Shown here: piece by piece, positions 70-33,529 of the stretch
Layout of the letters: each line of letters starts with the position of its first letter
How positions within the stretch are numbered: position 1 is the stretch's first letter
Virus record (IMG/VR): IMGVR_UViG_3300032401_000044
Location: 1-33,529 of that record
DNA from: a virus
Length of the DNA stretch: 33,529 nt
Direction: 5' to 3' (one strand)
The notes under the pieces: generated by a model
Seen by the model: the letters and a program-made list of their open reading frames with translations, nothing else
Databases searched by the model: none
What the model was told of the DNA's origin: nothing
Made by a program: the position numbers and the translations under genes

Positions 70-641
70 AAGTAACCTTTATAACACCGTTGACAAGACC
101 ATATAATATAAAACTAATGCACAATTCTATTATGGCAAGTGTAACTAAAGATGTTGAATGGGATTGGATTATAGTTGAAGATGGAGATTCACTACTTGAG
201 GCTGGAGATTGTCTTTGTACAAAATACATATCATACCCAAGTGATGACAAAGGTTTATCAGGGAATCCACAAAGAAATGTAGCACTAGACCATGTAGACT
301 GTGATAGATATGTTTACTTTTTAGACGATGATAATATTGTGCACTCAAATTTGTTTATTCGTGCTACTAAGATATTACAAAACTCTAATAAAGCGTTAAT
401 CTTTTCCCAAGTACATAAAATCGGAATACCAAGATTAATACCTCAACCAGATAGAATAGTTCCATGTCATATTGATACTGCTCAATTTCTAATTCCAAGA
501 GATTTAATAGGAGATTTAAAATGGGAAAATTTCAATTACTGCGCCGATGGTGCTTTTTTTAGTACTCTATATAATCAACATAAAGATAGATTTATAATAA
601 CTAAAGAAATGCTTTGTTACTACAATTATCTTAGACAATGA
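66..641 (+). CDS. GT2-like (GT-A fold) glycosyltransferase
   Basis: A 191-residue protein. A start at ATG 66 is preferred over TTG 51 because it overlaps the preceding stop (ATGA) and begins directly with the typical GT-A first beta strand, MKVTFITPLTRP. A second strand 'WIIVEDGD' and the acidic motif 'YFLDDDNI' near residue 90 match the nucleotide-sugar and metal binding (DxD) site of family 2 enzymes. The protein is short for GT2, essentially the catalytic core with no membrane segment, so it should be cytosolic. Its stop overlaps the next start (ATGA at 638). Acceptor and donor sugar cannot be read from the sequence; glycosylation of virion proteins or a host-surface polymer are both possible. 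Confidence 0.75.
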   Translation: MKVTFITPLTRPYNIKLMHNSIMASVTKDVEWDWIIVEDGDSLLEAGDCLCTKYISYPSDDKGLSGNPQRNVALDHVDCDRYVYFLDDDNIVHSNLFIRATKILQNSNKALIFSQVHKIGIPRLIPQPDRIVPCHIDTAQFLIPRDLIGDLKWENFNYCADGAFFSTLYNQHKDRFIITKEMLCYYNYLRQ

Positions 642-1399: not shown

Positions 1400-2075
1400 T
1401 TTATGTATACCAACACTAAATAGATATGATTTATTAATAAAATGCTTGGAATCAGCAGAAGCTGGAACACTAAAACCAACAGCTTATTATATAATTGATA
1501 ATGGAATGGATTTAGATTTGAATACAGTACCCAAAGAATTTGGATATAAAGTTTTTGTAGCAAAAGTAAAATATAATTTAGGAGTAGCTAGAAGTTGGAA
1601 CTGGTTCATTGATAATGTAAAAGACCATATCATTTTTTGTAATGATGATATAGAATTTTATGAAGATTCTCTTGAAAAACTTATGAGTGGTTATGACGAA
1701 AATTTTGCGGTTTATCCTGCAATTGGTTCAACATCCTTCTCTCTAATACAGTTTCCTAGAAAGATACTTGAAGATGTAGGACATTTTGATGAGGGCATAT
1801 CCCCCTTTTATGCCTACTTTGAAGATAATGATTATCATTATAGAATGAAATTAAAAGGATATGATATAAAATCAGTAGATGGTTGTAAAGTAAAACATGT
1901 TGGAAGTGCTACTTTGAAAAATTTTACTATGCTTGAACAAAAGATGCACCATGGTAAATTTGATGCAGCAAAATATAGATATTTTTTGAAATGGGGTGGA
2001 ATTCCAGGCAAGGAAAAATTTACAGAACCGTTTGATGGGAAAGAAAATGGCATTACAAGAGAAAATAACTCCTGA
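1389..2075 (+). CDS. GT2-like glycosyltransferase
   Basis: A 228-residue protein opening with 'FNLCIPTLNRYDLLIKCLES', the standard start of family 2 enzymes. 'YYIIDNG' follows near residue 35 and 'IIFCNDDIEFY' near residue 80, with the metal-binding Asp-Asp pair. 'FDEGISPFYAYFEDNDYHYRMKLKG' around residue 135-155 matches the conserved acidic helix (ED-x-D/E) carrying the catalytic base. 'VKHVGSAT' follows, as in rhamnosyl-type GT2 enzymes. There is no membrane anchor. It is not a close duplicate of the gene at 66, although both share the fold. It overlaps the start of terL, so it is translated in the same message as the packaging genes. Confidence 0.8.
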   Translation: MEFNLCIPTLNRYDLLIKCLESAEAGTLKPTAYYIIDNGMDLDLNTVPKEFGYKVFVAKVKYNLGVARSWNWFIDNVKDHIIFCNDDIEFYEDSLEKLMSGYDENFAVYPAIGSTSFSLIQFPRKILEDVGHFDEGISPFYAYFEDNDYHYRMKLKGYDIKSVDGCKVKHVGSATLKNFTMLEQKMHHGKFDAAKYRYFLKWGGIPGKEKFTEPFDGKENGITRENNS

Positions 2076-3591
2076 AGAGTGGCATCTATACGAAATTTTA
2101 AAACATCCAGTTCTGTTTGGTGAGTTCTATAGAAATCTGGATACACCAGCGTATTCAACTAAAAAATTTGAGTATTCTGGTTATCAGAAAGAATATTTAT
2201 GTGACTTTAGCCACTATGTATCTCTCTGTTGTGGTAGAGCAGTAGGTAAAACTGTAACTCTAACAGATTATATCTTATGGATACTTGTAAATAATTTCTT
2301 TCCAAATGAATATATCCTATATACAGTTCCAAACAAGGTTCACTTAGAACCTGTATTTACAAATCTAATAAAATATTTAAGAAGCAATACACTTCTAAAA
2401 AATTTTATAGAGCCAAAACGAGGAATTAATTCGTCTAGTTATTCAATTACATTGTTGAATAATGCACAATTGTTATGTAGAATTGCTGGACAATCGGGTA
2501 CAGGTGCAAATGTAATTGGTACTCACACACCAATAATTATCTTGGATGAATCTGGATACTATCCTTGGGGAACTTGGTTAGAATTACAACCTGTTCTAAA
2601 TACATGGGCAGATGGATTCAAATTATGGGTATCAGGTGTTCCTACAGGACTAAGAGAGAATTGTGTTATCTATTTAGCTGATGAGATTATGGAAGAATAT
2701 TCTCATCATAGAACATCTGCTCATGAAAATCCAAGATATACAGAAGAAGATGAAGCGAAGAATATAAAACAATATGGAGGGCCTGATAGTGAAGACTATA
2801 TTCACATTGTTTTGGGGAGACATGGTTCTCCAACCTTCGCAGTATTTGATAGAAGATTAATGAATATAGCTGAATATGCTACTTATAAACTTAGTATGTC
2901 TGGTATAGACCATACTTATACAGAAATTATAAATCGTATGGCACTCATCCCACCCCTTCCTCCACATGATTTAGCAGTAATGGGGATTGACTTAGGATAT
3001 ACGGAACCCACTTCAATCATGATACTTTATGAGAAAAATGGTATAATGAAAGAACATGCTAGAATTAATTTTTATAAAGTTGCATATCCAGTTCAAGAAA
3101 AAATAATTGACTATCTAGATACTAAATTTGGAAGACCAGAAGTTATCGGTGTAGATGTTGGTAATGAAAAAGGATTAGTACAACATCTATTGGAAGATGA
3201 TAACTATGTTCATAAAAATTATGCTAAAAGATTATTTCCAGTTTCCTTTGGTGCTTGGATAAGTCTAGGCGAAAACTCAGAAGGAGAGGAAATAAAAGTA
3301 AAAGTCAAACCTCATAGTGTATCATTACTTCAAGAGTATACTAATACACATAAAATTATATATTCCTCAACAGATTTTGAATTGATAACAGAACTTGAGA
3401 GAATGACATATACTAAAACACCTACAGGAGAAGTTGTATATAAAACTCTTACTCCCAAAGGTGGTAAACGAGGGGAAGACCATAATACAGCAGCTATGTT
3501 ATGTGCTATGATGGCATACTATATGTTAGTTATAGGATTGCTATTTTCTAAAGAACAGAAACGATTAGCTAAAAGTAGATGGGTAGTTTAA
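2047..3591 (+). CDS. terL: Terminase large subunit (packaging ATPase and nuclease)
   Basis: The DNA-packaging motor, which translocates DNA into the prohead and cuts concatemers. With the start at ATG 2047 (GGGAAAG about 7 nt upstream; ATG 2035 and GTG 1996 are in-frame alternatives) it is 514 residues. Walker A is 'GRAVGKT' (about 63-69) and Walker B is 'IIILDES' (about 163-169) with the catalytic Glu. The RNase H-like nuclease half has acidic residues at 'MGIDLGYTE' (Asp about 315), 'GVDVGNEKG' (Asp about 370) and 'EDHNTAA' (Asp about 478). All key residues are present, so it should be active. No small terminase subunit is visible; it may lie left of the window. Confidence 0.93.
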   Translation: MALQEKITPEEWHLYEILKHPVLFGEFYRNLDTPAYSTKKFEYSGYQKEYLCDFSHYVSLCCGRAVGKTVTLTDYILWILVNNFFPNEYILYTVPNKVHLEPVFTNLIKYLRSNTLLKNFIEPKRGINSSSYSITLLNNAQLLCRIAGQSGTGANVIGTHTPIIILDESGYYPWGTWLELQPVLNTWADGFKLWVSGVPTGLRENCVIYLADEIMEEYSHHRTSAHENPRYTEEDEAKNIKQYGGPDSEDYIHIVLGRHGSPTFAVFDRRLMNIAEYATYKLSMSGIDHTYTEIINRMALIPPLPPHDLAVMGIDLGYTEPTSIMILYEKNGIMKEHARINFYKVAYPVQEKIIDYLDTKFGRPEVIGVDVGNEKGLVQHLLEDDNYVHKNYAKRLFPVSFGAWISLGENSEGEEIKVKVKPHSVSLLQEYTNTHKIIYSSTDFELITELERMTYTKTPTGEVVYKTLTPKGGKRGEDHNTAAMLCAMMAYYMLVIGLLFSKEQKRLAKSRWVV

Positions 3592-3609
3592 AATAACATG
3601 GAGAATACT

Positions 3610-5157
3610 ATGGACAATAATAAAAGTAATAGACTAGCAAAGACAGCATTAGCAACATTTTTTATGCCACAGTCTAGTTACCCAAGTGATGTAGGTGTAT
3701 GGGGTTCCAATCAAGTAGATAAACTTTCCTTTGAAGACCATAGCACCTTTGTTAAGATTGTAAAGGATTGTAGATTTTTCTTTAGACATGAACCTATTGC
3801 TACTACTGTGGTAACAAAGATGGTTAGTCTAGCTATTAATGATATTATTGTTCCAGAAAATAGTATCCCCAAAACTGATTACCAGATATATGAATCTCTA
3901 AAGAAAGACATTGTACGATTTTTAAGAAAGGCTGCTTTGGAGTTCTTGACTACTGGATTAGTAGTTCCAGAAATAACCTTAACAAATTTAAATAGAAAAC
4001 AATTGAGAGAAAAGGGAATTCAAAGACTAGATAATTTGCTTTATCCTACCAGTATGTGGTTAAGAAATGCACAAGATATAGTAATAAAAAGACCTTTTAT
4101 TACTGATGAAGAATCTTACTTCTTGATAGTTCCTGATGAAGTAATAAACTTTTTGAAAACGGGCGGTACATACGATGATGGTTCTAAAGATATTGCATTA
4201 TATCAAGAAATTGTAAAATTGTACCCAGAATTTGTAGCTAAAATAACACAAGGGGAAACAAAAATACTACTTGATAATCCTCTTATTGTAAAATCAACTA
4301 TGTTAGCTGATTCTGAATATCCAATCCCTTATTTATACCCAGGATTGGAATCTTATAAACATAAGAGAAATCTTAGAAGAATGGACTATTCAATTGCATC
4401 TAGAGTTATTAGTGCTATCTTACATGTAAAAGCTGGAAGTGATGAATTTCCTTTAACTGAAGACCAACAAGATGTTCTAGATGATTTGGAAGATAAGTTT
4501 CATTGGAGAGAAGGAATTAGTCCCAGTGATGTAGAAAGAGTATTCACATTATTTACTAATCATACTATAGAATTGAAATGGGTATTTCCTGATGTAGAAG
4601 CATTATTGAATGATAAGAAATATGATGCAGTTAATAAAGATATAATCTTAGCATTAGGATTTCCTAGAATTCTAATCACTGGTGAAACAGAACGGTCATT
4701 TACTTCTGACCCAGAGATAGCTACACTATCTCCAGAGAGTACAATGAATGTAATGAGAGATGAACTTTTCCCTATTATATATAAAGTATTCTATGAAGTA
4801 AAAGAAAAAAATAATCTTAAAGGAGAACTACCTGAAGTAAAATTCAAACCTATAAACTTATTAGGATTGAGATTATTCTATGAAGGTGTATCTAAATTAT
4901 ATGATACTGGTAACTTATCTAGAAAATCATTTGCTGAATCTTATGGATTTGACTTATCAGAAGAACTAAATCATAAGGTAGAAGAAAAAGAAATGATGAA
5001 AGAGTTGGGACTAGATTTACCAACAGCAGGAGAACCACCTCCAGTAGTACCAGGAGCACCTGGAAAACCAACTACAAAACCAGCAGCACCCAAACCTGCA
5101 CCTAAACCAAAGCCAAAAGCAGGTGCACCGCCTGGAAATGACAATGGTAAGCAATAA
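3610..5157 (+). CDS. Portal protein
   Basis: Called as the dodecameric DNA gate at the capsid vertex, from its position directly after terL, its length of about 515 residues and its content. A start at ATG 3610 is chosen over ATG 3598 because GGAG lies 6 nt upstream of 3610, whereas nothing resembling a ribosome site precedes 3598. Residues about 50-110 (the 'FFRHEPIATTVVTKMVSLAIND' region) and the central 'LEDKFHWREGISPSDVERVFT' region look like the alpha/beta wing and stem of portals. The last 40 residues are a Pro/Ala/Lys-rich tail with repeated PKPAPKPKP, probably disordered. The stop TAA overlaps the next ATG (TAATG). Confidence 0.85.
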   Translation: MDNNKSNRLAKTALATFFMPQSSYPSDVGVWGSNQVDKLSFEDHSTFVKIVKDCRFFFRHEPIATTVVTKMVSLAINDIIVPENSIPKTDYQIYESLKKDIVRFLRKAALEFLTTGLVVPEITLTNLNRKQLREKGIQRLDNLLYPTSMWLRNAQDIVIKRPFITDEESYFLIVPDEVINFLKTGGTYDDGSKDIALYQEIVKLYPEFVAKITQGETKILLDNPLIVKSTMLADSEYPIPYLYPGLESYKHKRNLRRMDYSIASRVISAILHVKAGSDEFPLTEDQQDVLDDLEDKFHWREGISPSDVERVFTLFTNHTIELKWVFPDVEALLNDKKYDAVNKDIILALGFPRILITGETERSFTSDPEIATLSPESTMNVMRDELFPIIYKVFYEVKEKNNLKGELPEVKFKPINLLGLRLFYEGVSKLYDTGNLSRKSFAESYGFDLSEELNHKVEEKEMMKELGLDLPTAGEPPPVVPGAPGKPTTKPAAPKPAPKPKPKAGAPPGNDNGKQ

Positions 5158-5594
5158 TGAATACAAAAGAATATTACCAGAAATATTATCTTGAACATAA
5201 AGAACATATGTTGGAGTTGGCTAAACGCTCAAGAAATAATAGATTAAAGTCTGATTATAAAAGAACTAATGAAAAGGCTAGAGAGTACAATAAAAAATAT
5301 AGAACAGAGCATAGAGAATGGTTCTTAGACCAGCAAAGAAAAGATAGGCTAAAATATACTTTTGGTATTACCATTCAACAATATAATGAAATGTTTGAAA
5401 AACAAAATGGTTGTTGTGCTATTTGTGGAAAACACCAGAATGAATTTAAAAAAGCATTATATATAGACCATAACCATACTACAAATGAAATAAGAGGACT
5501 GTTGTGTTATAGTTGTAACTCTATGTTAGGATTTGCAAAAGATAATATAGAGATTTTAACTAATGCAATAGCTTATTTGGAGGTAAAAGAATGA
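5157..5594 (+). CDS. Endonuclease VII-like (ββα-metal/HNH) nuclease
   Basis: 145 residues. The C-terminal half has a 'CCAICGKH' zinc half-site near residue 86, the catalytic 'DHNH' at about 104-107, and 'GLLCYSCNSMLG' near 118-127. This is the arrangement of the recombination endonuclease VII family, with a ββα-metal active site and a four-Cys zinc site. The N-terminal half is very basic, with two repeats of a Tyr-Lys-Tyr ... Glu-His-Lys/Arg pattern (EYYQKYYLEHKEHM and EYNKKYRTEHREWF), probably binding DNA. It sits between portal and protease, outside any recombination module. It could resolve packaging branches like T4 gp49, or be a free-standing homing endonuclease; position slightly favours the latter. 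Confidence 0.85.
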   Translation: MNTKEYYQKYYLEHKEHMLELAKRSRNNRLKSDYKRTNEKAREYNKKYRTEHREWFLDQQRKDRLKYTFGITIQQYNEMFEKQNGCCAICGKHQNEFKKALYIDHNHTTNEIRGLLCYSCNSMLGFAKDNIEILTNAIAYLEVKE

Positions 5595-6607
5595 AAAATA
5601 TAACCAAAACCGTCACGTTTGACGCGTTTAATGTACAATTGTTAATAGATAAGTTAGAAATAGATGAGATGGCGGCTTCGGCTTCAATCTCTCTAAACCC
5701 TAACGTTGCTTGGATGAAGTTTTTGTTGACAGATGACCAACATAATGCTAATAAACAGAGAATTCCTAGAGAAGAATTTGCTAATGTTTTAAGAACAGGC
5801 TTATTCATGCCCCTAAAAATGGCATACGGAGAAGTATCTGAAGGACATGATGATACATTTCCATTAGGTGTTATGACACATTTGAAAACAGAAGGCAATT
5901 CAATCCAAGCATTAGCGGCTCTATGGGATAGAGAAAGACATGAAGATGTAGAATTCTTGAGAAACAGATACTCCGAGGGAAAAGGTATTGATATTTCTTG
6001 GGAATTAACTTATACAGACGAAGATGTTGAAGAAGAAGGTGTAGCATTGAAAAATGTCTCCATGAACGCAGCAACCATAGTAGGTATGCCTGCGTACCAA
6101 GGAAGAACAACTGCACTAGCATTATCTTCAGTCGAAAAAGAAGGAGATTCAATGGATACGATTGAAAAAACCGAACATGAAAGACTTTTGAATGAACAAA
6201 AAGGACAGTTTGAGGCTCAAATTGCAGAACTTCAAGCTAGTTTGACTACTGTTCAAACAGAGTTAGATGCGTTAAAACCTCAATATGAGGAATTAGCAAA
6301 TTACAAACAAACTATTGAAGAGGCAGAAGCAAAGAAAACCAAGCTGGCTTCAATTAAAGATAAATTTAAAGATGCAGGTCTTGATATTACTGATGAATAC
6401 TTTACTGAAAAGGAAGAGGCACTTGCTGGAATGACGGATGAACAACTTGAGTTCTTTATTCAAGAACTTGTAGCTGCTTTTAAACCCGCCGAAGAAGGCC
6501 AAGCGTCAATTTCTATTACTTCAAAAGGTGTTCCCGCAATTCGTGGTAAAGAGACTACAACTATCACCTCAAAAGATATGGTCGAATATCTTAGAAATAA
6601 AAACTAA
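5591..6607 (+). CDS. Prohead protease with C-terminal scaffold domain
   Basis: A 338-residue two-part protein overlapping the previous gene by ATGA. Residues 1-185 resemble head maturation proteases of the S78/herpes-assemblin type: 'FPLGVMTHLK', a 'GKGIDISWEL' strand with a candidate nucleophile Ser, and 'LKNVSMNAATIVGMPAYQGRT', which parallels the 'EVSLV..PA' segment of those enzymes. The catalytic residues are an inference. Residues 190-275 form a Glu/Gln/Lys/Leu-rich coiled coil typical of scaffolds, followed by an acidic helical part and a short basic tail. An internal start at 6152 with a strong ribosome site probably makes the scaffold separately. The next two genes are a decoration-like protein and the capsid protein. 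Confidence 0.75.
   Translation: MKNITKTVTFDAFNVQLLIDKLEIDEMAASASISLNPNVAWMKFLLTDDQHNANKQRIPREEFANVLRTGLFMPLKMAYGEVSEGHDDTFPLGVMTHLKTEGNSIQALAALWDRERHEDVEFLRNRYSEGKGIDISWELTYTDEDVEEEGVALKNVSMNAATIVGMPAYQGRTTALALSSVEKEGDSMDTIEKTEHERLLNEQKGQFEAQIAELQASLTTVQTELDALKPQYEELANYKQTIEEAEAKKTKLASIKDKFKDAGLDITDEYFTEKEEALAGMTDEQLEFFIQELVAAFKPAEEGQASISITSKGVPAIRGKETTTITSKDMVEYLRNKN
6141..6146 (+). promoter_or_regulatory. Internal Shine-Dalgarno inside the protease gene
   Basis: AAGGAG at 6141-6146 lies 5 nt before an in-frame ATG at 6152, exactly between the protease half and the coiled-coil half. In its coding frame the site encodes part of a Lys-Glu-Gly-Asp linker. Motif strength and spacing match ribosome sites of genuine genes in this window (for example before 6622 and 7219). 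Confidence 0.7.
6152..6607 (+). CDS. Nested in-frame scaffold protein (internal start)
   Basis: A 151-residue product starting at MDTIEKTEH and sharing the frame and stop of the protease gene. It would consist only of the coiled coil (about residues 1-85 of the nested product), a helical acidic region and a basic C-terminus: a classic scaffold composition that organises capsid assembly and is then removed by the protease. Nested scaffolds made from the 3' part of a protease gene are known in lambda (C/Nu3). Here the support is the strong AAGGAG at 5-nt spacing placed at the domain boundary. Expression is inferred, not shown. Confidence 0.6.
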   Translation: MDTIEKTEHERLLNEQKGQFEAQIAELQASLTTVQTELDALKPQYEELANYKQTIEEAEAKKTKLASIKDKFKDAGLDITDEYFTEKEEALAGMTDEQLEFFIQELVAAFKPAEEGQASISITSKGVPAIRGKETTTITSKDMVEYLRNKN

Positions 6608-6621
6608 GGAGTATAGTAACT

Positions 6622-7197
6622 ATGGAAATCAATAAATATACAGATATTATCGGTGTTGTAGTGTGTGGCGACATCGTTGAAGGCAGAATGGTTCAATTAA
6701 CCAGCCAAAGTTCTAGTCATCTTTGGGGGAGCAGAGAAGATTTAATGGGAGTAAGACTTCCAAGAACTGATGCAGAAGCCTTAAAAGCTAAGTACATTGT
6801 TACTTGGCCTGTAAATAACTCTCAAGTAGATGATAACATTAAAATGTTAGTACCATTCCCACACTATGATTGGTCACTAAGACGAGGTGCTTTTGAGCAA
6901 GTAGGAAATGTTCCATTCACCTCTACAATTTACATGACTTACCCTGGAAATCAAAACGGGGTAACAATCCCTTCGGGTTACTTAGCATTAGCCTTTGATA
7001 GAGGCGTTTTCACTGTACCTTCAGGTGGGTTTGTATTCTCAGCCGATATTATGGCTGCAGGTGCACCACTAGAAGTATTAAATATCAATGATGACACAAC
7101 TAATGCTGGTAAATTAGCTTACGCAAGCGGTGGTGCTATCGCTATAGTTGAGCGGTTCAATTCTGATGACGGTTCCTTAACCTTCAGAACACTATAA
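6622..7197 (+). CDS. Putative capsid decoration/head protein
   Basis: 191 residues, beta-rich, preceded by AAGGAG about 10 nt before the ATG. The N-terminus 'IIGVVVCGDIVEGRMVQLT' looks like a small beta-barrel entry. The body has many Gly, Pro and Val residues, with no membrane segment or enzyme motif. Position between the protease/scaffold and the major capsid gene is where capsid decoration proteins are encoded in many siphoviruses. Base composition is higher in GC than the flanking small genes, as for the capsid and tail tube genes, consistent with high expression. I do not recognise the family with certainty; a capsid-stabilising role is inference from gene order. Confidence 0.5.
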   Translation: MEINKYTDIIGVVVCGDIVEGRMVQLTSQSSSHLWGSREDLMGVRLPRTDAEALKAKYIVTWPVNNSQVDDNIKMLVPFPHYDWSLRRGAFEQVGNVPFTSTIYMTYPGNQNGVTIPSGYLALAFDRGVFTVPSGGFVFSADIMAAGAPLEVLNINDDTTNAGKLAYASGGAIAIVERFNSDDGSLTFRTL

Positions 7198-7218
7198 ACA
7201 TAAAGGAGAGTACTTATT

Positions 7219-8139
7219 ATGGCTGATGAAAAACAAATTCAAGAAGCAATTGCTTCTATGGTGAAAGACAGAAACCAAAGAGAGGCATTGTCACAAATTA
7301 TCGTGGAATACGTTCAGCCTAATCATTTAACAGGAGATTTTGTTGGAAATCTTTTGACTACGAGAGCCTTAAAACCAGGCGACAGCCTTGTAAAGAAAGT
7401 TAGAAAAGGCATCAGAGTTAGAACCTTGGTTCCTGGTGCAGTTCACCTAGCTGGTGAAATTACACAATCAGAAAGAATCAATTTCGTGTTAGATGGTGCT
7501 GACGTAAAAGTTACTTATAATGAATGGGAAATGGAAAGTGGCGAAATTGGCACTCTCCAAGAAATTAAATCAGAAATGGCTGCAAAGCTAAAAGATTTTT
7601 ATTACAATAAAATTTTCTCTGCTTTGGGGACTATCTGGTCTGGTGCAAATACCCCTGACAACTATGTATCTGTAGGTCATGCTATTGATGCAACTGCTCT
7701 AGAAGCAGCTATCAATAGAATTAACCAAACAACTACAGGTGCAAAGGCCATCGTTGGTCTTCGTTCAGTAGTTACCCCTATTTCCAAGTTCGCTGCATTT
7801 TGGGATGATGGTGGTGGTACAAACGTTGGGATATCACAAGATAAAATCAACGAAGTTTTGAATACTGGTAAAATTGGTAGATACTACGGTGTTCCTATCG
7901 TAGCAATTGACCAAGTTTATGACAGCCCTGATACATACAAACCACTTTATCCAAGCAACTTTATTTTAGTTGTTGGTGAAGGTGTGGGTGAATTTATTAC
8001 CTACGGTGATGTAAAATCAAAACAATGGTCAGATATGAATCCTACTCCTCCACAATGGATGATTGAAATTTATCAACAATTCGGAATGATTATTGATAAT
8101 GCTCAAGGGATTTATATGTTGGATGATGTAACTGTATAA
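7219..8139 (+). CDS. Major capsid protein (HK97-fold expected)
   Basis: 306 residues, with AAGGAG upstream of ATG 7219. It follows the protease/scaffold and decoration-like genes and is followed by a GC-rich hairpin, the usual place for the most expressed virion gene. The helical, charged N-terminus (about 1-45) resembles an N-arm or delta domain. 'LKPGDSLVKKVRKGIRVRTLVPGAVHLAGEITQSERINFVLDG' in the first third and the 'ATALEAAINRINQTT' helix are compatible with the E-loop/A-domain layout, as is a C-terminal 'NFILVVGEGVGEFITYG' strand segment. No cleavage site can be assigned with confidence. The name rests on gene order and general resemblance. Confidence 0.8.
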   Translation: MADEKQIQEAIASMVKDRNQREALSQIIVEYVQPNHLTGDFVGNLLTTRALKPGDSLVKKVRKGIRVRTLVPGAVHLAGEITQSERINFVLDGADVKVTYNEWEMESGEIGTLQEIKSEMAAKLKDFYYNKIFSALGTIWSGANTPDNYVSVGHAIDATALEAAINRINQTTTGAKAIVGLRSVVTPISKFAAFWDDGGGTNVGISQDKINEVLNTGKIGRYYGVPIVAIDQVYDSPDTYKPLYPSNFILVVGEGVGEFITYGDVKSKQWSDMNPTPPQWMIEIYQQFGMIIDNAQGIYMLDDVTV

Positions 8140-8151
8140 TAAATAGAATAT

Positions 8152-8174
8152 GGGGGAGAGTAAACCTCTCCCCC
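8152..8174 (+). terminator. GC-rich hairpin after the capsid gene (terminator or mRNA-stabilising)
   Basis: GGGGGAGAG (8152-8160), loop TAAAC, CTCTCCCCC (8166-8174): a perfect 9-bp stem with a 5-nt loop, 12 nt after the capsid stop. Only two T residues follow, so it is a weak intrinsic terminator at best; partial termination or protection of the capsid message are equally plausible. ATATG on the left and CATATG on the right add a loose outer dyad. Confidence 0.65.
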
Positions 8175-8181
8175 TTACCAT

Positions 8182-8451
8182 ATGGCTAATACTACTCTCA
8201 AATATCAAAAAAGAATAATTCGTAATAGAAAGATTGTTGCAGATTATAAGAGTACACATCCATGTACAATATGTGGAGAAACTAGATTGCCATGTTTAGA
8301 TTTTCATCATCCCAATGATGATAAATCTAGAACTGTATGTTGGCTTACTGAAAAAGGTAGAAGTAAAAAACAATTACTTGAAGAAATGGCTAAATGTATT
8401 ATAGTTTGTGCAAATTGCCACCGTATAATACATTGGGATGAACAACATTAA
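8182..8451 (+). CDS. Small HNH endonuclease
   Basis: 89 residues. It has 'CTICGE' near residue 30, 'LDFHHP' (the first His pair of HNH) near 42, and 'CIIVCANCHRIIH' near 75-83, giving the Asn, the last His and the second zinc half-site. The N-terminus is basic. No ribosome site precedes ATG 8182; the only purine-rich run (GGGGGAGAG) is in the 5' arm of the hairpin about 22 nt upstream, so translation may be low or structure-controlled. The lone position between the capsid gene and connector genes fits a free-standing homing-type HNH gene. A packaging-associated HNH is less likely because those usually sit beside terL. Confidence 0.8.
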   Translation: MANTTLKYQKRIIRNRKIVADYKSTHPCTICGETRLPCLDFHHPNDDKSRTVCWLTEKGRSKKQLLEEMAKCIIVCANCHRIIHWDEQH

Positions 8452-8478
8452 AACTTAAAATTAAAAAGGAGTAATAAT

Positions 8479-8955
8479 ATGTCTGATTATAATGTATTTT
8501 CAGCTATGCAGGCAGGGGCAGAACCTCTTGCAAGATATAGAAAAACTATTGTAGGAAAGGTGCACGTAGTCGCGCTCAACCCCTTTTCGGAACAACCAGA
8601 AGGGGTTCTTCTTGAAGGTGACGGAATAGGTTCTTACATAGAACTTTGGGATGCAAAACAACAAGTGTTTTTTGAAAGAATGAACAAAAGTCATCTAGAT
8701 GCTGGCAGGATTGTAAAGATGGAAAAATTACCAGAACCACCACCTCCTTCTCCTAACCAGTTAACAGATGATGAAATTGATAAACTTCTAGAAGGAAGAT
8801 TCCCAACCTTAAAAGCTAAGGCAGATAAATTTACTGATACTGCTCCAGCTCTTAGAATTCTAAACAGAGCTAGAGAACTGGAGAAATCAGAAAAGATTAT
8901 CAAGTATCTAGAAGAAAAGATTGCCCAACTAGAGTTAGAAAAATACGAGCAATAA
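8479..8955 (+). CDS. Putative head/connector protein, C-terminal coiled coil
   Basis: 158 residues, with AAGGAG about 9 nt upstream of the ATG. The N-terminal half (about 1-75) is a small beta-rich domain with no recognised motif. A Pro-rich hinge (PEPPPPSPNQ, about 88-97) leads to a helical, charged C-terminus with a Leu/Ile heptad pattern ending 'YLEEKIAQLELEKYEQ'. The hinge plus coiled coil suggests a structural protein that oligomerises. It lies between capsid and adaptor genes and its stop overlaps the adaptor start (TAATG). I do not recognise a family. Confidence 0.6.
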   Translation: MSDYNVFSAMQAGAEPLARYRKTIVGKVHVVALNPFSEQPEGVLLEGDGIGSYIELWDAKQQVFFERMNKSHLDAGRIVKMEKLPEPPPPSPNQLTDDEIDKLLEGRFPTLKAKADKFTDTAPALRILNRARELEKSEKIIKYLEEKIAQLELEKYEQ

Positions 8956-9446
8956 TGGCTACAGATTTAAACTACCTTATACCAAGATTAAGATTAAAGT
9001 TAGGAGATTTAACTCCTCCCTACAAGTATATGGATGAGTGGTTACATCTATCTTTGGTAGCATCTATTGATGCATTACAACGTTGGTGGAATGACAAGTA
9101 CCAAGTAGATATAAACAATAGAGTTTCTCCATCCATTCAAAGAAGAGATATACAACCTATTGTCTTAATGGCATGTATTATTCTAAAGAGTGGAAGCCTA
9201 GAAAATTTTTCATGGAATGTAGGTTCTTGGAGAGATGCTGAAATTTCTTTTTCCAATATTGAGGGGAGTAGAGGTAAACAAGATTCATTAAAACAAGATT
9301 GGGATGAGTTAAATAGAATATTAACTTCACCAAATAAAAAATTAGTAGGCTCAGTTAAAGGACATTTGCCTGGATATACAGGAAATCAAATTGAAATGGG
9401 GCAAGGTGACGAGTATAAAACATTTATAGATACTGATAACGAGTAA
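8955..9446 (+). CDS. Head-tail adaptor-like protein
   Basis: 163 residues. The N-terminus 'LNYLIPRLRLKLGDLTPPYKYMDEWLHLSLVASIDAL' resembles the helical core of head-tail connector proteins of the HK97 gp6/SPP1 gp15 type, where an 'L...R..LGD....Y.D..L...L..A' pattern recurs. A second helix (IQPIVLMACIILKSG) follows. It starts at the TAATG overlap with the preceding gene and opens the connector series (adaptor, stopper, completion, terminator) in the usual siphovirus order, although a glycosyltransferase gene interrupts it next. The role would be binding under the portal to form the neck. Confidence 0.6.
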   Translation: MATDLNYLIPRLRLKLGDLTPPYKYMDEWLHLSLVASIDALQRWWNDKYQVDINNRVSPSIQRRDIQPIVLMACIILKSGSLENFSWNVGSWRDAEISFSNIEGSRGKQDSLKQDWDELNRILTSPNKKLVGSVKGHLPGYTGNQIEMGQGDEYKTFIDTDNE

Positions 9447-9460
9447 GAAGGAAGGGTTTT

Positions 9461-10660
9461 ATGAATAAAATAAAAGGATTATTTATCGCTGATGCGGTTG
9501 CCGCAACAGGTTTTGCTAGAGTTGCACACTCTATTATTGATAATTTACCAGAGCAATATGAAATTCACCAGTTAGGGATAAATTATTTTGGAGACCCACA
9601 CGAATACAAGCATAAGATTTATCCCGCAAATATAGGTGGAGATGTTTATGGAATAGGGCGAGTCATTCCCCTGATATATACTATCAAACCAGATTTTATA
9701 TTTATCATAAATGACCCGTGGGCAATCTCAATGTACTTGCAAGAAATAAAGAAAGCCAAATTCAAGGTAATTCCACCTATTATAACATATTTTCCAGTGG
9801 ATGCTATGGAGCATAGCCCAAGTTTCTATGAACACTTTGATTTAGTTAATGAAGTCTGTGTTTACACACAATTTGCAAAAGATGTAGTTTTAGCTACAGG
9901 TTCTCCTAATATAGTAGAGGAAAAAATTCATATCATTCCTCATGGAATTTCTACAAAGACGTTTTACCCAATAAATTCTACTTTCGCAAAACAAACGTTA
10001 TATCCAAAAGATAAAACAGAGGAGTTTCTTAATTCTTTTGTGGTCTTTAATGGAAACAGAAATCAGCCTAGAAAAAGAATGGATTTAACGATGTGGGCTT
10101 TTAGAGAATTCCAAAGGAACAAACCAGATGTAAAGTTATATATGCACATGGGGATAATAGACATGGGAATTAATATACCTGAGCTGGCTGTACGATATGG
10201 ATTTGATAGTAAACTGGTTTTATCTACACAGGAGAATAGAATTCCAAGTGTAACAGACGAAAAACTTAATATTATCTATAATGCCGCTGATGTAGGCATA
10301 AATACATCACTAGGAGAGGGTTGGGGGTTGGTTAACTGGGAACATGCTGCTACTGGTAAGCCACAAATTGTACCTAATCATTCTGCTCTCAAAGAAATTT
10401 GGGAAGGAAGTGCTAAATTAATTCCTACAATTATGTTACAGATGATTGATAGAGTTAATACAGTGGGACAGGTAATAGATATAAGAGCATTGATAAGTAC
10501 ATTAGAATGGGCATACTATGATTGGAAATATAATGATGGTGTAGAACTAAAGGAATTAGGGCAAAAAGGTTATAATCTTACACAAGAAGAAAGATTTACT
10601 TGGCAATCTATAGATAAAGACTTTGATAAAATAATTAAGAAAATGTTAAAGGAAAAATAA
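9461..10660 (+). CDS. GT4-like (GT-B fold) glycosyltransferase
   Basis: 399 residues, a full-length GT-B enzyme. It has an N-terminal Rossmann half with 'FIADAVAATGFARVAHSII' (glycine-containing acceptor loop), 'IHIIPHGISTKTFYP' near residue 165-180 and 'NGNRNQPRKRMDLTMWAF' (start of the donor domain). 'NTSLGEGWGLVNWEHAATGKPQIVP' near 280-305 carries the conserved E-x7-E-type donor-binding region of family 4. There is no membrane anchor or signal peptide. It is preceded by AAGGAAGGG and its stop overlaps the next start (TAATG), so it is fully embedded in the connector operon. A substrate among virion proteins is suggested by position only. Confidence 0.85.
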   Translation: MNKIKGLFIADAVAATGFARVAHSIIDNLPEQYEIHQLGINYFGDPHEYKHKIYPANIGGDVYGIGRVIPLIYTIKPDFIFIINDPWAISMYLQEIKKAKFKVIPPIITYFPVDAMEHSPSFYEHFDLVNEVCVYTQFAKDVVLATGSPNIVEEKIHIIPHGISTKTFYPINSTFAKQTLYPKDKTEEFLNSFVVFNGNRNQPRKRMDLTMWAFREFQRNKPDVKLYMHMGIIDMGINIPELAVRYGFDSKLVLSTQENRIPSVTDEKLNIIYNAADVGINTSLGEGWGLVNWEHAATGKPQIVPNHSALKEIWEGSAKLIPTIMLQMIDRVNTVGQVIDIRALISTLEWAYYDWKYNDGVELKELGQKGYNLTQEERFTWQSIDKDFDKIIKKMLKEK

Positions 10661-11100
10661 TGACTATTTTTTGGCCTAGTAATACTGCATATATTACTGA
10701 TGAAATTAGAAATGCAATTGGAAGAGATATAACTATTTTAGTTACAGTATCTGGAATTGCATGTGCAGCGTGCAGTTTAAATCCAGTTTCAAATTTATCT
10801 ACCAATCCATTCTGCCCTGTATGTGGTGGAACATATTGGACAAGTACGACATCAGATTATGTTGTAAATGCTCATGTAACTATAGGTGAAATTGATTTGC
10901 CTTGGAGAATAGCTGGTGGGTATATTGAAAGAGGAGAAGCAGTTGTACAAATAAAATACACCCCTGACAATTTATATGCAGTTGAACATGCAGCACATTA
11001 TATTGTGGATGGGAAAACTTATTTACAGGATGATATCTCTTATAGAGGTGTTCCTGATATAAATAGAATGGTGATTACCCTCAAAGAACAAGAGGGATAA
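10660..11100 (+). CDS. Putative head-closure (stopper) protein with zinc finger
   Basis: 146 residues beginning at the TAATG overlap. Residues about 34-60 contain 'CAACSL' and 'FCPVCGG', two Cys-x2-Cys pairs about 15 residues apart that look like a zinc ribbon inserted in a loop. The rest is beta-rich ('DYVVNAHVTIGEIDLPWRIAGGYIERGEAVVQIKYTP'), compatible with the small beta-barrel of stopper proteins (SPP1 gp16/HK97 gp7 type). Position after the adaptor supports a neck role. The family name is inferred; the zinc pairs are visible. Confidence 0.5.
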   Translation: MTIFWPSNTAYITDEIRNAIGRDITILVTVSGIACAACSLNPVSNLSTNPFCPVCGGTYWTSTTSDYVVNAHVTIGEIDLPWRIAGGYIERGEAVVQIKYTPDNLYAVEHAAHYIVDGKTYLQDDISYRGVPDINRMVITLKEQEG

Positions 11101-11116
11101 AGAGAGGAAGGTTAAC

Positions 11117-11350
11117 ATGGCAGGAGAAATTATTATACAGGGCTTAGACATGGTTGATGCCCTTAACGTGATTGAAAATAAAAAAGATAAGTTTGTTGCG
11201 ATTATGTTAAGTGATGTAGAACTTCAGTTTCCTAAAGGAAGCAAGGAATTCAAATACATCCGAAAGGTAATACTAGATGGAATGAATGATTATACTCGTT
11301 CTTATCTAAGAATTCTTTTTGGTGATATAGAAGGTCTTGTGATGAAATAA
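11117..11350 (+). CDS. Small conserved-looking protein in the connector operon, unknown function
   Basis: 77 residues, with AGAGGAAGG upstream. It is an alpha/beta protein with no Cys, no membrane segment and no catalytic motif. The C-terminal 'YIRKVILDGMNDYTRSYLRILFGDIEG' is likely helical. It ends two nucleotides before the next ATG. Co-transcription with connector genes suggests an assembly factor or a neck component, but I do not recognise it. Confidence 0.55.
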   Translation: MAGEIIIQGLDMVDALNVIENKKDKFVAIMLSDVELQFPKGSKEFKYIRKVILDGMNDYTRSYLRILFGDIEGLVMK

Positions 11351-11351
11351 A

Positions 11352-12245
11352 ATGACAGATTTTGGTTCTAAAGATATAGGAAGATTGTCACGTAAAGCTA
11401 AAGAAGGTAGACAAGAATATGCACATATTCTGAAATATGAGAAAAGAGTAGAAGAAAGAACACAAACTGAGTACAACGAGATAAATGCTAAACGTGAAAT
11501 AATAGAAGAGAATCGTGAATACTATCGAGATATATTTTTAGAAAACACAAGAGTAGCTATAGAAAAAACTAAAGAATATAATAGATTAGAAAAATTCTCT
11601 GATAATCTAGAAAATGCAATTTCATATAATATAATGGATTTACTAACTGCTATAATAACGAGAGGCCCATATGGAGTTTATGATGTAATGGAAAGGGTGG
11701 CTGGAAGTTTAGCTGAATTTTGGGATGGTGTGGAAAATGCAAGAGAAGAAATGGAGTTAGGTAAGGGTAGTCCAGAACAGAGAGCAAGATACTGGAAAAA
11801 TAAGGTTTGGCCTAGTGAAGAGATGTATGAAGATACAATTGCTTATAGATTTCAAGCATGGCAAGATTATGCACCTTATTGGTACTGGATTGAACATGGA
11901 AATTATTTCCATATAAGAGCATTTCCTAATTTTGCACAAACAAATTTTTTATCTAAATCTGCCTATGCAATAGAAGAAGATATAAATATAAAGGTATATG
12001 AGCGCAAGCAAGAAGAAGAAGGAGAAGTAACTCCAGAGGAAGAAGAAGTTCAAGATTTCTATGATACACAAGAAAAGAACTTATTTGATGAAGCGCAGGC
12101 AAGGTTTTTAGCAAATCCAGAATCATTTAAACCTGGAGATGTATTCAACCGCTATAAAAGTCTGGAAGATGAATGTTACTATAAGATTGTTCTTACTCAG
12201 ACTAAATTAATTGGTAGAAGAAAAATAAGGTCGAGGATAAAATGA
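11352..12245 (+). CDS. Putative tail-completion/neck protein (HK97 gp10-like core)
   Basis: 297 residues. The first 90 are highly charged and helical with many Glu/Arg/Lys (coiled-coil-like). The middle, about 165-185, has 'YRFQAWQDYAPYWYWIEHGN', resembling the 'A.YA.YVE.GT' hallmark of gp10-type tail-completion proteins. The C-terminal third includes an acidic Glu-rich run (EEEGEVTPEEEEVQ) and a basic end. The protein is much longer than the usual 120-170 residues of that family, so the flanks would be additions. Order (stopper, this, terminator, tube) supports the role. It overlaps the next start by ATGA. The assignment is tentative. Confidence 0.45.
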   Translation: MTDFGSKDIGRLSRKAKEGRQEYAHILKYEKRVEERTQTEYNEINAKREIIEENREYYRDIFLENTRVAIEKTKEYNRLEKFSDNLENAISYNIMDLLTAIITRGPYGVYDVMERVAGSLAEFWDGVENAREEMELGKGSPEQRARYWKNKVWPSEEMYEDTIAYRFQAWQDYAPYWYWIEHGNYFHIRAFPNFAQTNFLSKSAYAIEEDINIKVYERKQEEEGEVTPEEEEVQDFYDTQEKNLFDEAQARFLANPESFKPGDVFNRYKSLEDECYYKIVLTQTKLIGRRKIRSRIK

Positions 12246-12697
12246 ACTTAGACATAAAACAGAATTTAAGTGTATACTATTATGTAAGGGAAGTTTTATC
12301 TGGCTACCCTACCATACATGTAACAGATGACTATCCCAATACTGAACTGGTACTTCCCTCGGTATCAGTTGTAAATAATGATATATATACGGAACCGCTA
12401 GAACTAGGTAATAGACATGGGCTTAGAAATAGAGTATGGAATATAGAAGTTTTTGGAGCTAATAAAAACCAAAGAGATGAGATAACATACATCTTAATGG
12501 ATAGTGTAGAAAATTATATTCCAGTTTATGACTATGACCAAGGTTTTCCTCCTAGTGGAGTCCCCATGATTGGGGTACTCGAATTGAAACCAGGTACGTT
12601 AGTAGCTACCCCCAATAGAGTTTTTCCAGAACTAGTAGAAAGGCTTTATTGGAGAACAAGCATAAAATTTTTAACAGAATACGAGAGTATTATTTAG
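12242..12697 (+). CDS. Putative tail terminator protein
   Basis: 151 residues starting at the ATGA overlap. N-terminal helix 'QNLSVYYYVREVLSGYPTIHV' is followed by beta strands with 'ELVLPSVSVVNND' and 'RNRVWNIEVFGANKNQRDEITYILMDSVENYIPVYDY', a pattern typical of tail terminators (lambda gpU/SPP1 gp17-like: one strand-rich sheet plus a helix between 'v.v.i.G' and 'd'). It lies immediately before the tail tube gene, the expected site. It would cap the finished tube and bind the neck. Supported by order and fold-like pattern, not by a diagnostic motif. Confidence 0.6.
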   Translation: MNLDIKQNLSVYYYVREVLSGYPTIHVTDDYPNTELVLPSVSVVNNDIYTEPLELGNRHGLRNRVWNIEVFGANKNQRDEITYILMDSVENYIPVYDYDQGFPPSGVPMIGVLELKPGTLVATPNRVFPELVERLYWRTSIKFLTEYESII

Positions 12698-12709
12698 GAG
12701 GTCTTTATA

Positions 12710-13906
12710 ATGGCTAGAAGAATAGCAATTCCATCAAAGGCTGTAGAGCTAAAAGTTGTAGGCCCAAAGGATGCGTTAGTATTCCCTAGAGTACAAAGAT
12801 TAACTGTAACCTCAGATAGACCATCAACAGATATTGATGAACTTGGTAACAGATTACATGCTGGAACTGTCGAAGACATTCCTGCAATCACTGTTACCTT
12901 CCAAGCTATGGATGTAGGAATCAAATTGTTCTCAGTTCTAACTGGAACAACAGCATCTTCTTATCCAGCAAGTGGAGTCAGTATTACCGAGTTGAAGGAT
13001 GTAGACGTTATTGTTAACATCAAGAGCGACACAGTTGAAGACTATGTAAAAATGGCACACGCTAGACGTTGTGTAGTTAGAGATTTTACATTTACCTATA
13101 CGGTAGATGGAGAATCAACCGAAGAGTATACATTGATTGGTACTAAGAAAAGATGGTTCAAGAATGATGTTGTAGCCCAAAAGTTTGATACTGGGACTAC
13201 TTCATTCACACTAACCTATACACCAGTTACTCTTAAGAGTGGTGATAAAGCATTATCAGTAATTCTTGATGGTGTTTACCTAACAGAAGTTGCAGCTACA
13301 CCTGGTACAGGAGAGTACTCAATTTCTACAACCACACTTACTACTGGGGATACCAGAACAAGTCAATGTATCGCAATTTACCAAGCTGTCATGGCTGGTA
13401 ATGCTTGGGTAGACTCAACAGACAGTACAATGCCAGCCGCTATCAGAGGTATGGATGTTCCTGTAGTAATTGGTGCTGGTGGAATCGAAAGAGTTCAATC
13501 AGTAACAATGAATGGTACGTTCAACCCTGAAGCAGTAAAAGAAATGGGAAATCGTGAGTTGGTTGGTTATCAAATGCAAATTCCAGCAGTTACTGGAACA
13601 ATTACTGTATTAGATACTGATACAGAACTAATTGCTCTGTTGACAACTGGACAAATTAATCCTTCTGGTGTAACCGAGTTTGGTGTATCAGAATTTACAG
13701 CTAGTGGTATTTCATTGGTTGTTAAATTACAAAATCCAGCAGACAAAACTTTACCATATGAGATTTTGAAGACTTTATACATGCCTTCAATCTCAGTAAC
13801 CAATGAAGGATTTACTTCAAATGTAAACCAAAACGCTCAACAAACGTTTGACTTCAAATCTACTACTGGGCAAATCATAATTTACCAAGGCTCAGGCATA
13901 TTTTAA
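12710..13906 (+). CDS. Major tail tube protein
   Basis: 398 residues, with an excellent AGGAGG site 7 nt before ATG 12710 and a rho-independent terminator after it, as expected for a highly expressed tail gene. It is beta-rich. The N-terminal part ('FPRVQRLTVTSDRPSTDIDELGNRLHAGTVEDIPAITVTFQAMD') fits a tube-domain opening. The central 'TSFTLTYTPVTLKSGDKALSVILDG' could be an inserted Ig-like or loop domain, and the C-terminal 'VTNEGFTSNVNQNAQQTFDFKSTTGQIIIYQG' is compatible with strands closing the tube barrel. The length is large for a siphovirus tube protein, consistent with added surface domains. The following chaperone and tape measure genes support the call. Confidence 0.8.
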   Translation: MARRIAIPSKAVELKVVGPKDALVFPRVQRLTVTSDRPSTDIDELGNRLHAGTVEDIPAITVTFQAMDVGIKLFSVLTGTTASSYPASGVSITELKDVDVIVNIKSDTVEDYVKMAHARRCVVRDFTFTYTVDGESTEEYTLIGTKKRWFKNDVVAQKFDTGTTSFTLTYTPVTLKSGDKALSVILDGVYLTEVAATPGTGEYSISTTTLTTGDTRTSQCIAIYQAVMAGNAWVDSTDSTMPAAIRGMDVPVVIGAGGIERVQSVTMNGTFNPEAVKEMGNRELVGYQMQIPAVTGTITVLDTDTELIALLTTGQINPSGVTEFGVSEFTASGISLVVKLQNPADKTLPYEILKTLYMPSISVTNEGFTSNVNQNAQQTFDFKSTTGQIIIYQGSGIF

Positions 13907-30243: not shown

Positions 30244-30477
30244 ATGCCTTACGGTATGCCCAAAGAAATGGGTGGAGATTCACCTGAAAATGATAATTGG
30301 ATGGAACGCTGTGTAAAAAGAGTATCCACCCAAAAAGGTAAAGATGGAAATACTTTTGGTAAAGAAAAAGCTATTGCTATCTGTAAATCAACCTTTATGA
30401 AGATGAAAGGCAATAAATCTAATGCTGAGATGGAACTTGCCTTTACATATGAGTGGTTTAAACGAACTACCCCTTGA
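30244..30477 (+). CDS. Small phage protein, unknown function ('W..RCVKRV...AIAICKS' type)
   Basis: 77 residues with a full AAAGGAGG site 5 nt upstream of the ATG. The core 'DNWMERCVKRVS' followed by 'GKEKAIAICKSTF' is a pattern I recall from many phage proteins near structural genes, with two Cys residues in conserved positions, but its role is not known to me. It is the last gene of the late block: its stop codon TGA is part of the TTGACA box of the next promoter. Confidence 0.65.
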   Translation: MPYGMPKEMGGDSPENDNWMERCVKRVSTQKGKDGNTFGKEKAIAICKSTFMKMKGNKSNAEMELAFTYEWFKRTTP

Positions 30478-30502
30478 CAAATCTTTTAAAACGTGTTATA
30501 AT
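30474..30502 (+). promoter_or_regulatory. Consensus vegetative promoter with extended -10
   Basis: TTGACA (30474-30479), 17 nt, TATAAT (30497-30502), with TG at 30494-30495 giving an extended -10 (TGTTATAAT). All 12 core positions match the housekeeping sigma consensus. Transcription should start about 30509, leaving a short leader before GGAG (30521-30524) and ATG 30534. The -35 box overlaps the preceding stop codon. Confidence 0.9.
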
Positions 30503-32473: not shown

Positions 32474-32772
32474 TACCCAAAGAATACTTTAGAATGGAAT
32501 GTGATTGTCAAGTATATGAAGAGAACACCCTCTATATAGATAGCTGTTGGGAACTTGGTGTAAGGCATGGCTTTATAACAGACGATTTTATTATCTTCAA
32601 GTATTGTCCTTGGTGTGGAAAGAAATTAGAAAAAGTTCCTATTCCCAAAGATATGTCTCTACATGAAGCACAAAGATGTTCATATAGATTACATATGCAC
32701 ATGCCCCTTGATACTAGTGTGTGGGGATACTACTTTGATATGGGAGTGAATGAATGGAAGCCAATGAAATGA
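32470..32772 (+). CDS. Small protein with Cys pairs (possible zinc binding)
   Basis: 100 residues from ATG 32470, which overlaps the previous stop (ATGA); ATG 32458 is an in-frame alternative. 'MECDCQVYEENTLYID' gives one Cys-x-Cys near residue 10 and 'YCPWCGKKLEKV' gives a Cys-x2-Cys near 46, a plausible split zinc site. The C-terminal part is His/Met-rich (RLHMHMP) and Trp/Tyr-rich. Function unknown. Confidence 0.55.
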   Translation: MIPKEYFRMECDCQVYEENTLYIDSCWELGVRHGFITDDFIIFKYCPWCGKKLEKVPIPKDMSLHEAQRCSYRLHMHMPLDTSVWGYYFDMGVNEWKPMK

Positions 32773-32990
32773 AGACTAGAATAATTACACATATATCTGT
32801 AGAAAATCCTTTCTATTTTGATAATAAATTTGATATAACCTTCTATAGAAAAGATTATCAATATAACGTAGATATAGTTAATAAGTACTGTGGAGTTACT
32901 GAAAGTAGTTTAAGTAGATTGGATAGATTGATACCTAAACATTACTTAATTGGAGACCCACCGATAACAGTTCCTAGAAAATTTTTTTAG
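32769..32990 (+). CDS. Small protein, unknown function (last + strand gene)
   Basis: 73 residues from ATG 32769, which overlaps the previous stop (ATGA) and has GGAAG 8 nt upstream; ATG 32754 is an alternative. Strand-rich ('RIITHISVENPFYF', 'KFDITFYRKDYQYNVDIV') then a helical 'VTESSLSRLDRLIP' and a C-terminal 'PPITVPRKFF'. No Cys pairs or membrane segment. No clear terminator follows; the stop is in an AT-rich run leading to the repeat region. Confidence 0.5.
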   Translation: MKTRIITHISVENPFYFDNKFDITFYRKDYQYNVDIVNKYCGVTESSLSRLDRLIPKHYLIGDPPITVPRKFF

Positions 32991-33074
32991 ACCGATAGTG
33001 GAATCTGAAAATTGAGGTGTGATGTGTGGGGTATACACGGCGGCGCTGACTATGCGAAAGGTGACAATTTTTAT

Positions 33075-33178
33075 CCAATTAGATATATATCTAAGTTGAT
33101 CCGAATTGATATATATCAAACCTGGTCTGAATTGATATATAACAAAAACTATCTGAATACTCATATCTTTAACATTCC
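33075..33178. repeat. Four tandem 26-bp iteron-like units with central palindromes
   Basis: Units begin at 33075 (CCAATTAGATATATATCTAA...), 33101 (CCGAATTGATATATATCAAA...), 33127 (CTGAATTGATATATAACAAA...) and 33153 (CTGAATACTCATATCTTTAA...). The first holds a perfect 16-bp palindrome (33079-33094), the second a perfect 14-bp palindrome (33106-33119), the third the same with one mismatch (33132-33145), and the fourth is degenerate. Centres of the first three are exactly 26 bp apart. These are likely binding sites for a dimeric phage protein. Confidence 0.8.
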
Positions 33179-33217
33179 TTTAACAAAAGTTGTCTGACAA
33201 CTCATCTAATGTTAAAG
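33167..33217. repeat. Inverted repeat CTTTAACATT around a GTTGTC-T-GACAAC palindrome
   Basis: CTTTAACATT (33167-33176) is mirrored by AATGTTAAAG (33208-33217), extendable by one base outward. Between them lies the perfect 13-bp dyad GTTGTCTGACAAC (33189-33201). Further TTTAACA/TGTTAAC/TGTTAAA boxes sit at about 33178, 33220 and 33231. The left arm lies inside the fourth 26-bp unit, so the two repeat systems interlock. Confidence 0.65.
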
Positions 33218-33248
33218 AATTGTTAACGCTATGTTAAATTATAAATAT

Positions 33249-33283
33249 AAAAAAAGTTGCCCTTACCTGGGCAGGGTAAGGGC
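33249..33283 (-). terminator. Rho-independent terminator for minus-strand transcription
   Basis: GCCCTTACC (33259-33267) and GGTAAGGGC (33275-33283) form a perfect 9-bp stem with a 7-nt loop. Read on the minus strand the hairpin is followed by AAC and seven T residues (A-run at 33249-33255 on +). The + strand side has no T-run. It lies about 38 bp beyond the stop of the minus-strand gene. Confidence 0.85.
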
Positions 33284-33320
33284 ATATTCAATTAATCTTC
33301 CACAATTAATCTTGTGTAGA

Positions 33321-33529
33321 CTAGATATTTTTAATTACCTTTACAATTTTAATTGTTGATGCGGATTCGGTATGATGTATTTTACCTGAACGATTAGGTA
33401 ACGCTAATAGACGCATGCTACGTATAGATTCAAAGGTAACATAGGATAAAATCTCTTTTTGATTAGCGTATACATCATGTTTAGGTTGATCACCCCCAAA
33501 TGAAACATCCTTTATAGTTACCTGTATAT
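33321..33529 (-). CDS. 3' part of a minus-strand gene entering from the right edge, product unknown
   Basis: The minus strand is open from the window edge to TAG at 33323-33321, giving 68 C-terminal residues that read as protein: 'KDVSFGGDQPKHDVYANQ', then 'EILSYVTFESIRSMRLLAL' (helical), 'NRSGKIHHTESASTIKIVKVIKNI' at the end. A strong terminator follows at the right distance, supporting a genuine gene. Its direction is opposite to everything else, so another transcription unit (for instance early, replication or lysogeny genes) starts beyond the window. No family is recognised. Confidence 0.7.
   Translation of the reverse strand, partial: IQVTIKDVSFGGDQPKHDVYANQKEILSYVTFESIRSMRLLALPNRSGKIHHTESASTIKIVKVIKNI

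Follow-up and report, generated by a model that had tools for sequence, protein, structure and literature searches.

The question raised by this locus is what a short array of tandem palindromes may do at the point where the plus-strand genes of a phage end against a gene of the opposite strand. The earlier note had preferred a replication origin with iterons, a partition site or a long-range regulatory array over promoter operators for this place. The window analyzed here corresponds to a complete IMG/VR virus record (33,529 bp), a single contig from an uncultured phage. The genes of its late arm, all on the plus strand, are those of a tailed phage and encode terminase, portal, HNH-like, tail and endolysin proteins along with small products; the features at the right end are listed in Table 1. 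A perfect sigma70-type promoter (TTGACA-17-TATAAT with an extended -10) was found at 30474-30502, ahead of the small genes which end the late arm. Two small HNH endonuclease-like genes are located at 5157-5594 and 8182-8451. The phage also has a number of glycosyltransferase-like genes, placed ahead of the terminase and within the head-gene region (51-2075 and 9461-10660), of which that at 9461-10660 was assigned by a PHROGs match and the others by eye.

Table 1. Features at the convergent junction of the window
Feature	Position	Strand	Basis or remark
Last late-arm gene	32754..32990	+	78 aa, no family
Two CCGATA direct repeats, 31 bp apart	32961..32997 (32961, 32992)	+	Motif count upstream of core
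Conserved non-coding core (TGGGGTATACAC...CAATTTTT...AAT)	33006..33079	+	Model R1 from three relatives, E=0.002
Tandem array, 26-bp period, ~3.1 units	33070..33158	.	Self-identity by lag, shuffles, TRF
Dyad 1, perfect palindrome TTAGATATATATCTAA, 16 bp	33079..33094	.	Self-comparison
Dyad 2, perfect palindrome TTGATATATATCAA, 14 bp, also reads TTGAT-N4-ATCAA	33106..33119	.	Self-comparison
Dyad 3, TTGATATATAACAA, single mismatch	33132..33145	.	Self-comparison
Second repeat layer: imperfect inverted repeat, inner dyad and motifs	33162..33238	.	Repeat search, fold z-scores
Intrinsic terminator of minus-strand gene	33258..33284	-	Terminator scan
Minus-strand gene facing the junction element	33321..33529, start beyond window	-	C-terminal 68 codons only

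The 26-bp period of the array was found to be real. Within 33070-33178, identity at lag 26 was 56/83 (67%) compared with 14-42% at the other lags from 5 to 44. The array is the best 78-column self-match of the entire 33.5 kb window (54/78, lag 26, start 33055); none of 1000 dinucleotide-shuffled versions of the region reached its score, and TRF reports the same array. The earlier note had described four units, each with a dyad; the unit at 33153-33178 has none and retains only part of the spacer (CTGAAT), and there are therefore three dyads in approximately 3.1 repeat units, their centres spaced at exactly 26 bp. Its description of the first two dyads as perfect palindromes and the third as having one mismatch was confirmed, as was the location of the array between the ends of the plus-strand and minus-strand genes. 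The motif is confined to the array, as TTGATATATATCAA occurs once in the window and allowing one mismatch adds the third dyad only. The region 32991-33254 is only slightly richer in A+T than the window as a whole (69% against 65.5%), and a search of Rfam gave no match.

No strong promoter was detected at or reading out of the array, only weak 9/12 matches at the level expected by chance. This bears on whether the dyads could be sites for a host regulator of the FNR type, as TTGATATATATCAA spells the FNR consensus TTGAT-N4-ATCAA found in papers including PMC3688515 and PMC1802743. Dyad 2 matches these letters and dyad 3 does so with one mismatch, but there is no good promoter for such a regulator to act on, dyad 1 deviates in both half-sites, a spacing of 2.5 helical turns is unusual for co-activation and the relatives described below are without the motif. 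Regulation by FNR is the least probable of the explanations considered here.

No DNA similar to the window was found in cultured phages and no relative of its terminase in GTDB genomes. The terminase search first gave 13 loci, including that of a 52 kb contig (G005), and a terminase profile gave at least 80 related loci (80 kept out of 108 relatives). Nineteen related contigs, G005 among them, were read in their entirety. G005 shares 90-93% identity with positions 1-12770 of the window, bar an HNH-like insertion, and reaches 40 kb further left; the HNH-like gene at 5157-5594 is absent at that place in G005 (90% identical), which fits a recent insertion. The left side of G005 is a minus-strand arm encoding a PolA-like polymerase, a RecA/UvsX-like recombinase, SSB, a DnaB-type helicase, a primase and a sigma-factor-like protein. 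One further protein of G005 (L028:7371-8504) has long TPTxTPT repeats, a style common in Chloroflexota and a possible hint to the host. Most of the 19 contigs have the same layout, with an early minus-strand arm, a divergent start, a late plus-strand arm and a convergent junction, the last situated 27-33 kb after terL in most relatives. One relative (G029) closes as a 96.5 kb circle (overlap 104 bp) and another (G030) measures 96.7 kb. Searches by the minus-strand gene, a 250-aa gene, a tail gene, the primase arm and the 26-bp DNA pattern gave no close relatives spanning the array, and a search by a 104-aa gene gave one contig, matching over just 60 residues at 38%.

The main new result is a conserved core with CCGATA repeats, situated to the left of the palindromes which the earlier note had described. 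At the convergent junction of the family the core follows the pattern TTGGGGTATAC...AATTTT...GGGGG; that of the window is without the 3' G-run which its relatives keep. A sequence-only model (R1) was built from the junctions of G017, G028 and G029, with the window excluded. It has a single match in the window (33006-33079, E=0.002). In 840 kb of other contigs it recognizes, apart from its own three, only the G035 junction and the G026/G027 junction, both at E=0.002. Counted by phage type, the core occurs once in the window and once in each of five others; it is conserved over TerL identities of about 55-100%. A model built from six sequences had no match in 1.5 Mb outside its building set. The string TGGGGTATAC is common to the junctions of the window, G017, G028 and G029, and outside coding sequence occurs nowhere else in these contigs. 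The second half of the core is present in diverged form in G030 and G031 (TTTTTTAGAA.TTG.GGGGG), recognized by alignment only. No RNA structure was predicted for the core on either alignment, and the RNA fold of 32985-33075 was no better than that of shuffles.

In six genomes the 200 bp preceding the core contain, in total, eight copies of the hexamer CCGATA, always on the plus strand, against 0.15 expected, a figure somewhat flattered because the motif was picked after looking. In the window the copy at 32961 lies within the end of the last plus-strand gene. The sequence CATTCCTTTAACA comes immediately after the core in G026, and in the window after the array (33173-33185). In addition, the 12-mer TTGATCCGAATT at 33096 in the array matches, as reverse complement, a stretch of the G017 core, AATTCGGATCAA, a hint that the array may have grown from a binding motif of the family. 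As a separate observation, 9 of 62 related terminase genes (for example the TerL genes L009:7066 and L051:10994) encode their DLGYT motif with codons that read TTGGGGTAT(AC), the same letters as those of the junction core, compared with approximately one expected from codon usage; the genes in this count are related to each other, and the window's own terL differs.

Unlike the core, the palindromes are not shared. The array of the window begins where relatives have the G-run which ends the core, and it stops before the inverted repeat and the terminator. The corresponding slot, or sequence near it, holds two copies of GTGAATTTTTTCAC along with CTAATTTTAGAATTAG in G028, inverted repeats in G029, and three 49-bp units with GGTACC and GATATC in G026/G027, the last of these beyond an inverted junction gene. 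The junction of G039 has two exact DnaA-type boxes, TTATGCACA and TTATACACA, 15 bp apart (77391-77415, oriented contig coordinates); in the window, no DnaA box (0-1 mismatch) was found up to 350 bp from the array. No comparable dyad array was found beside the core of G017 or the core-like region of G030, and the array is therefore dispensable. As other members have different dyads or none, the palindromes are specific to a lineage, and it is the core that the family retains. The earlier note had held that repeats which are not conserved within a conserved neighbourhood would speak against its reading, and half of this was observed, in that the repeats vary between lineages while the core beside them is conserved.

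To the right of the array is a second repeat layer, which the earlier note missed, as it did the conserved core directly left of the array. An imperfect inverted repeat (33162-33233) has 31-nt arms of 77% identity and encloses an inner perfect dyad, AGTTGTC-T-GACAACT (33188-33202), and TTTAACA (33168, 33179) faces TGTTAAA (33210, 33232) in an inverted arrangement. As single-stranded DNA, 33060-33245 folds with z=-4.7 and 33160-33250 alone with z=-4.4. Hairpin potential was rejected as a special mark of the site because many other intergenic regions of these genomes reach z values of -3 to -5.5.

Dyads and inverted repeats of this sort also call to mind a partition site (parS/parC type) or a phage attachment site, in both of which tandem dyads with inverted repeats are common. 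Such a role is rated very unlikely; no ParA/ParB-like or integrase family was seen among the scanned proteins of the G005 replication arm and of the window, which cover part of the ORFs of an incomplete genome.

A further possibility is that proteins bound to the dyads act as a transcription roadblock or insulator which stops late transcripts from entering the early arm. The intrinsic terminator found here serves the minus strand only, no plus-strand intrinsic terminator was found in the window after the last plus-strand gene, and the array directly follows the last late gene. However, relatives with plus-strand terminators of their own (G028, and G026 where it lies upstream of the core) keep the core. 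What also speaks against a general insulator is that the element is missing from other convergent gene pairs of these genomes; the core, for instance, is absent from other convergent junctions of the same genomes, such as that at 20540/20747 in G028. We consider a roadblock to be quite improbable.

A small gene of unassigned family borders the junction in the members read there. The junction genes of G029, G017 and G026/G027 belong to a single protein family (E below 1e-12), to which those of G030 and G031 are weakly similar. Those of G028, G035, G039 and the window occupy the same place with no detectable similarity. For the window, homology between the minus-strand fragment, which is truncated, and the junction proteins of relatives was not detectable (hhalign P=0.18); the gene is the positional counterpart of their fast-evolving junction gene. 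Comparison of the junction protein with Pfam, PHROGs and the PDB gave nothing convincing. By its position, its product is the natural candidate for the dyad-binding protein, as far as can be inferred. Several relatives also have tandem repeats of differing unit lengths immediately upstream of the junction gene on the minus strand (G028 80741-80792 and 119-194; G017 59598-59724; G035 65142-66040; G029 6713-6750), and in two relatives they end the assembly.

Taken together, a non-coding, multi-motif site which occurs once per genome and has fast-changing iterons and a fast-changing neighbouring gene looks like an initiator/origin or a packaging site. The explanation we favour, with a chance somewhat short of even, is that the array constitutes initiator-type iterons of a cis-acting site for DNA transactions, present once per genome where the late and early arms converge, and probably a late or secondary origin. 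Tandem iterons that are palindromic are known from lambda (PMC7466680) and RepA_N replicons (PMC7145576). The three palindromes would be tandem sites for a dimeric DNA-binding protein and would form the lineage-specific block of an element ordered as CCGATA repeats, TTGGGGTATAC...AATTTT core, iterons or other inverted repeats, and the terminator of the minus-strand gene. We infer that a protein binds the dyads, most likely one encoded by the phage and plausibly the fast-evolving product of the minus-strand gene, and that it would open or remodel the DNA beside the core so that a round of DNA synthesis could start. Different dyad blocks in the same slot among members are what fast-evolving pairs of initiator and iteron would give. 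The family encodes its own DnaB-type helicase, primase, SSB, RecA/UvsX-like recombinase and PolA-like polymerase. From position and skew, the junction would be a secondary or late-phase origin, and the first bidirectional origin would lie in the divergent region adjoining the DNA polymerase gene.

The earlier note had suggested cumulative GC skew as a check on an origin, and here skew peaks rather than bottoms at the junction. In most contigs its maximum is at the junction and its minimum at the divergent promoter region, a terminus-like pattern, and replication forks setting out from the junction would travel against the direction of nearly all genes. Both observations count against a primary bidirectional origin at the junction; the objection would not apply to a late or secondary origin or to a packaging start. 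The same skew pattern could mean that the junction is a replication terminus, the meeting point of forks from the divergent origin, with a fork-arrest or resolution protein bound to the dyads. The skew maximum at the junction and the minimum at the divergent region adjoining the polymerase gene fit such a terminus. However, the skew is confounded with gene orientation, and neither the few opposite-strand genes nor 4-fold sites separate replication skew from coding skew; fork-trap sites are, moreover, usually asymmetric rather than palindromic. A terminus is regarded as improbable.

The main rival to the origin is a packaging or genome-end site, in which the core would be the start for terminase (pac/cos) or would mark the ends of a linear genome, with the dyads as accessory terminase-binding or end-protecting sites. 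The core occurs once per genome, is non-coding and lies at the outer ends of both arms, where a linear map would end, and minisatellites flank the site in G028, G017 and G035. In phage ICP1 the pac site falls in a 1.3 kb ORF-free space which is also the peak of late replication (PMC7145576), but that space lies between divergent genes, not convergent ones. The core is also approximately 31 kb from terL, whereas pac and cos sites usually adjoin the terminase genes, and the circular assembly of G029 and the 96.7 kb assembly of G030 cross the junction unbroken. Packaging is possible, if on balance unlikely.

Returning to the late or secondary origin, the preference of the earlier note for an origin, partition site or long-range array over promoter operators is partly supported and appears right in kind. 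The element is non-coding and once per genome, with no strong promoter; the skew peak, the head-on genes and the lack of a par gene among the scanned proteins tell against parts of it. A broader proposal, which we hold to be doubtful, is that these junctions represent a new class of phage cis-element, with CCGATA repeats, a TTGGGGTATAC core and a diversifying iteron slot co-evolving with a neighbouring DNA-binding protein of unassigned family. There would be one such element per genome at the late/early convergence, controlling the switch to late replication or packaging.

For uncultured phages of the lytic type, sequence alone has almost never sufficed to locate an origin or a packaging start. 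Here the comparison yields an exactly placed conserved target of 85 bp, with a candidate binding protein encoded nearby, for a large family of phages so far found only in metagenomic virus contigs, which makes the start of late replication or packaging testable with reads that may already exist. The eye-catching palindromes proved to be the changeable part of the locus, and the inconspicuous sequence to their left the conserved part.

Compared with known systems, an FNR-family operator resembles the locus in that dyad 2 fits its consensus, but here there is no promoter context and the sites form a tandem triple at half-turn spacing which is not conserved. The array differs from a DnaA-dependent origin in being without a DnaA-box cluster, the two exact boxes of G039 belonging to a relative. 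Like the pac/late-replication region of ICP1, the junction is one ORF-free region, and its proposed role in late DNA metabolism would likewise be exercised at one site per genome; the flanking genes are convergent here and divergent in ICP1, and no sequence similarity was found. The RepA_N-type iteron origins of staphylococcal plasmids and the PLE satellite likewise have semi-palindromic direct repeats in a non-coding region, but the adjacent gene here is of unassigned family, and no match to a RepA_N initiator was found among the right-end proteins of the window (where the minus-strand gene is truncated) or the junction proteins of relatives. The O-type origin of lambdoid phages differs in that the lambda iterons lie inside the O gene, whereas the array is non-coding and at a convergent junction; no O homologues were found here and the conserved core is absent from lambda. 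It is similar in having several tandem iterons, each an (imperfect) inverted repeat, as are the three dyads with their 26-bp period, possibly in having easily melted sequence beside them (69% against 65.5% A+T here), and in that the phage encodes or recruits a DnaB-type helicase.
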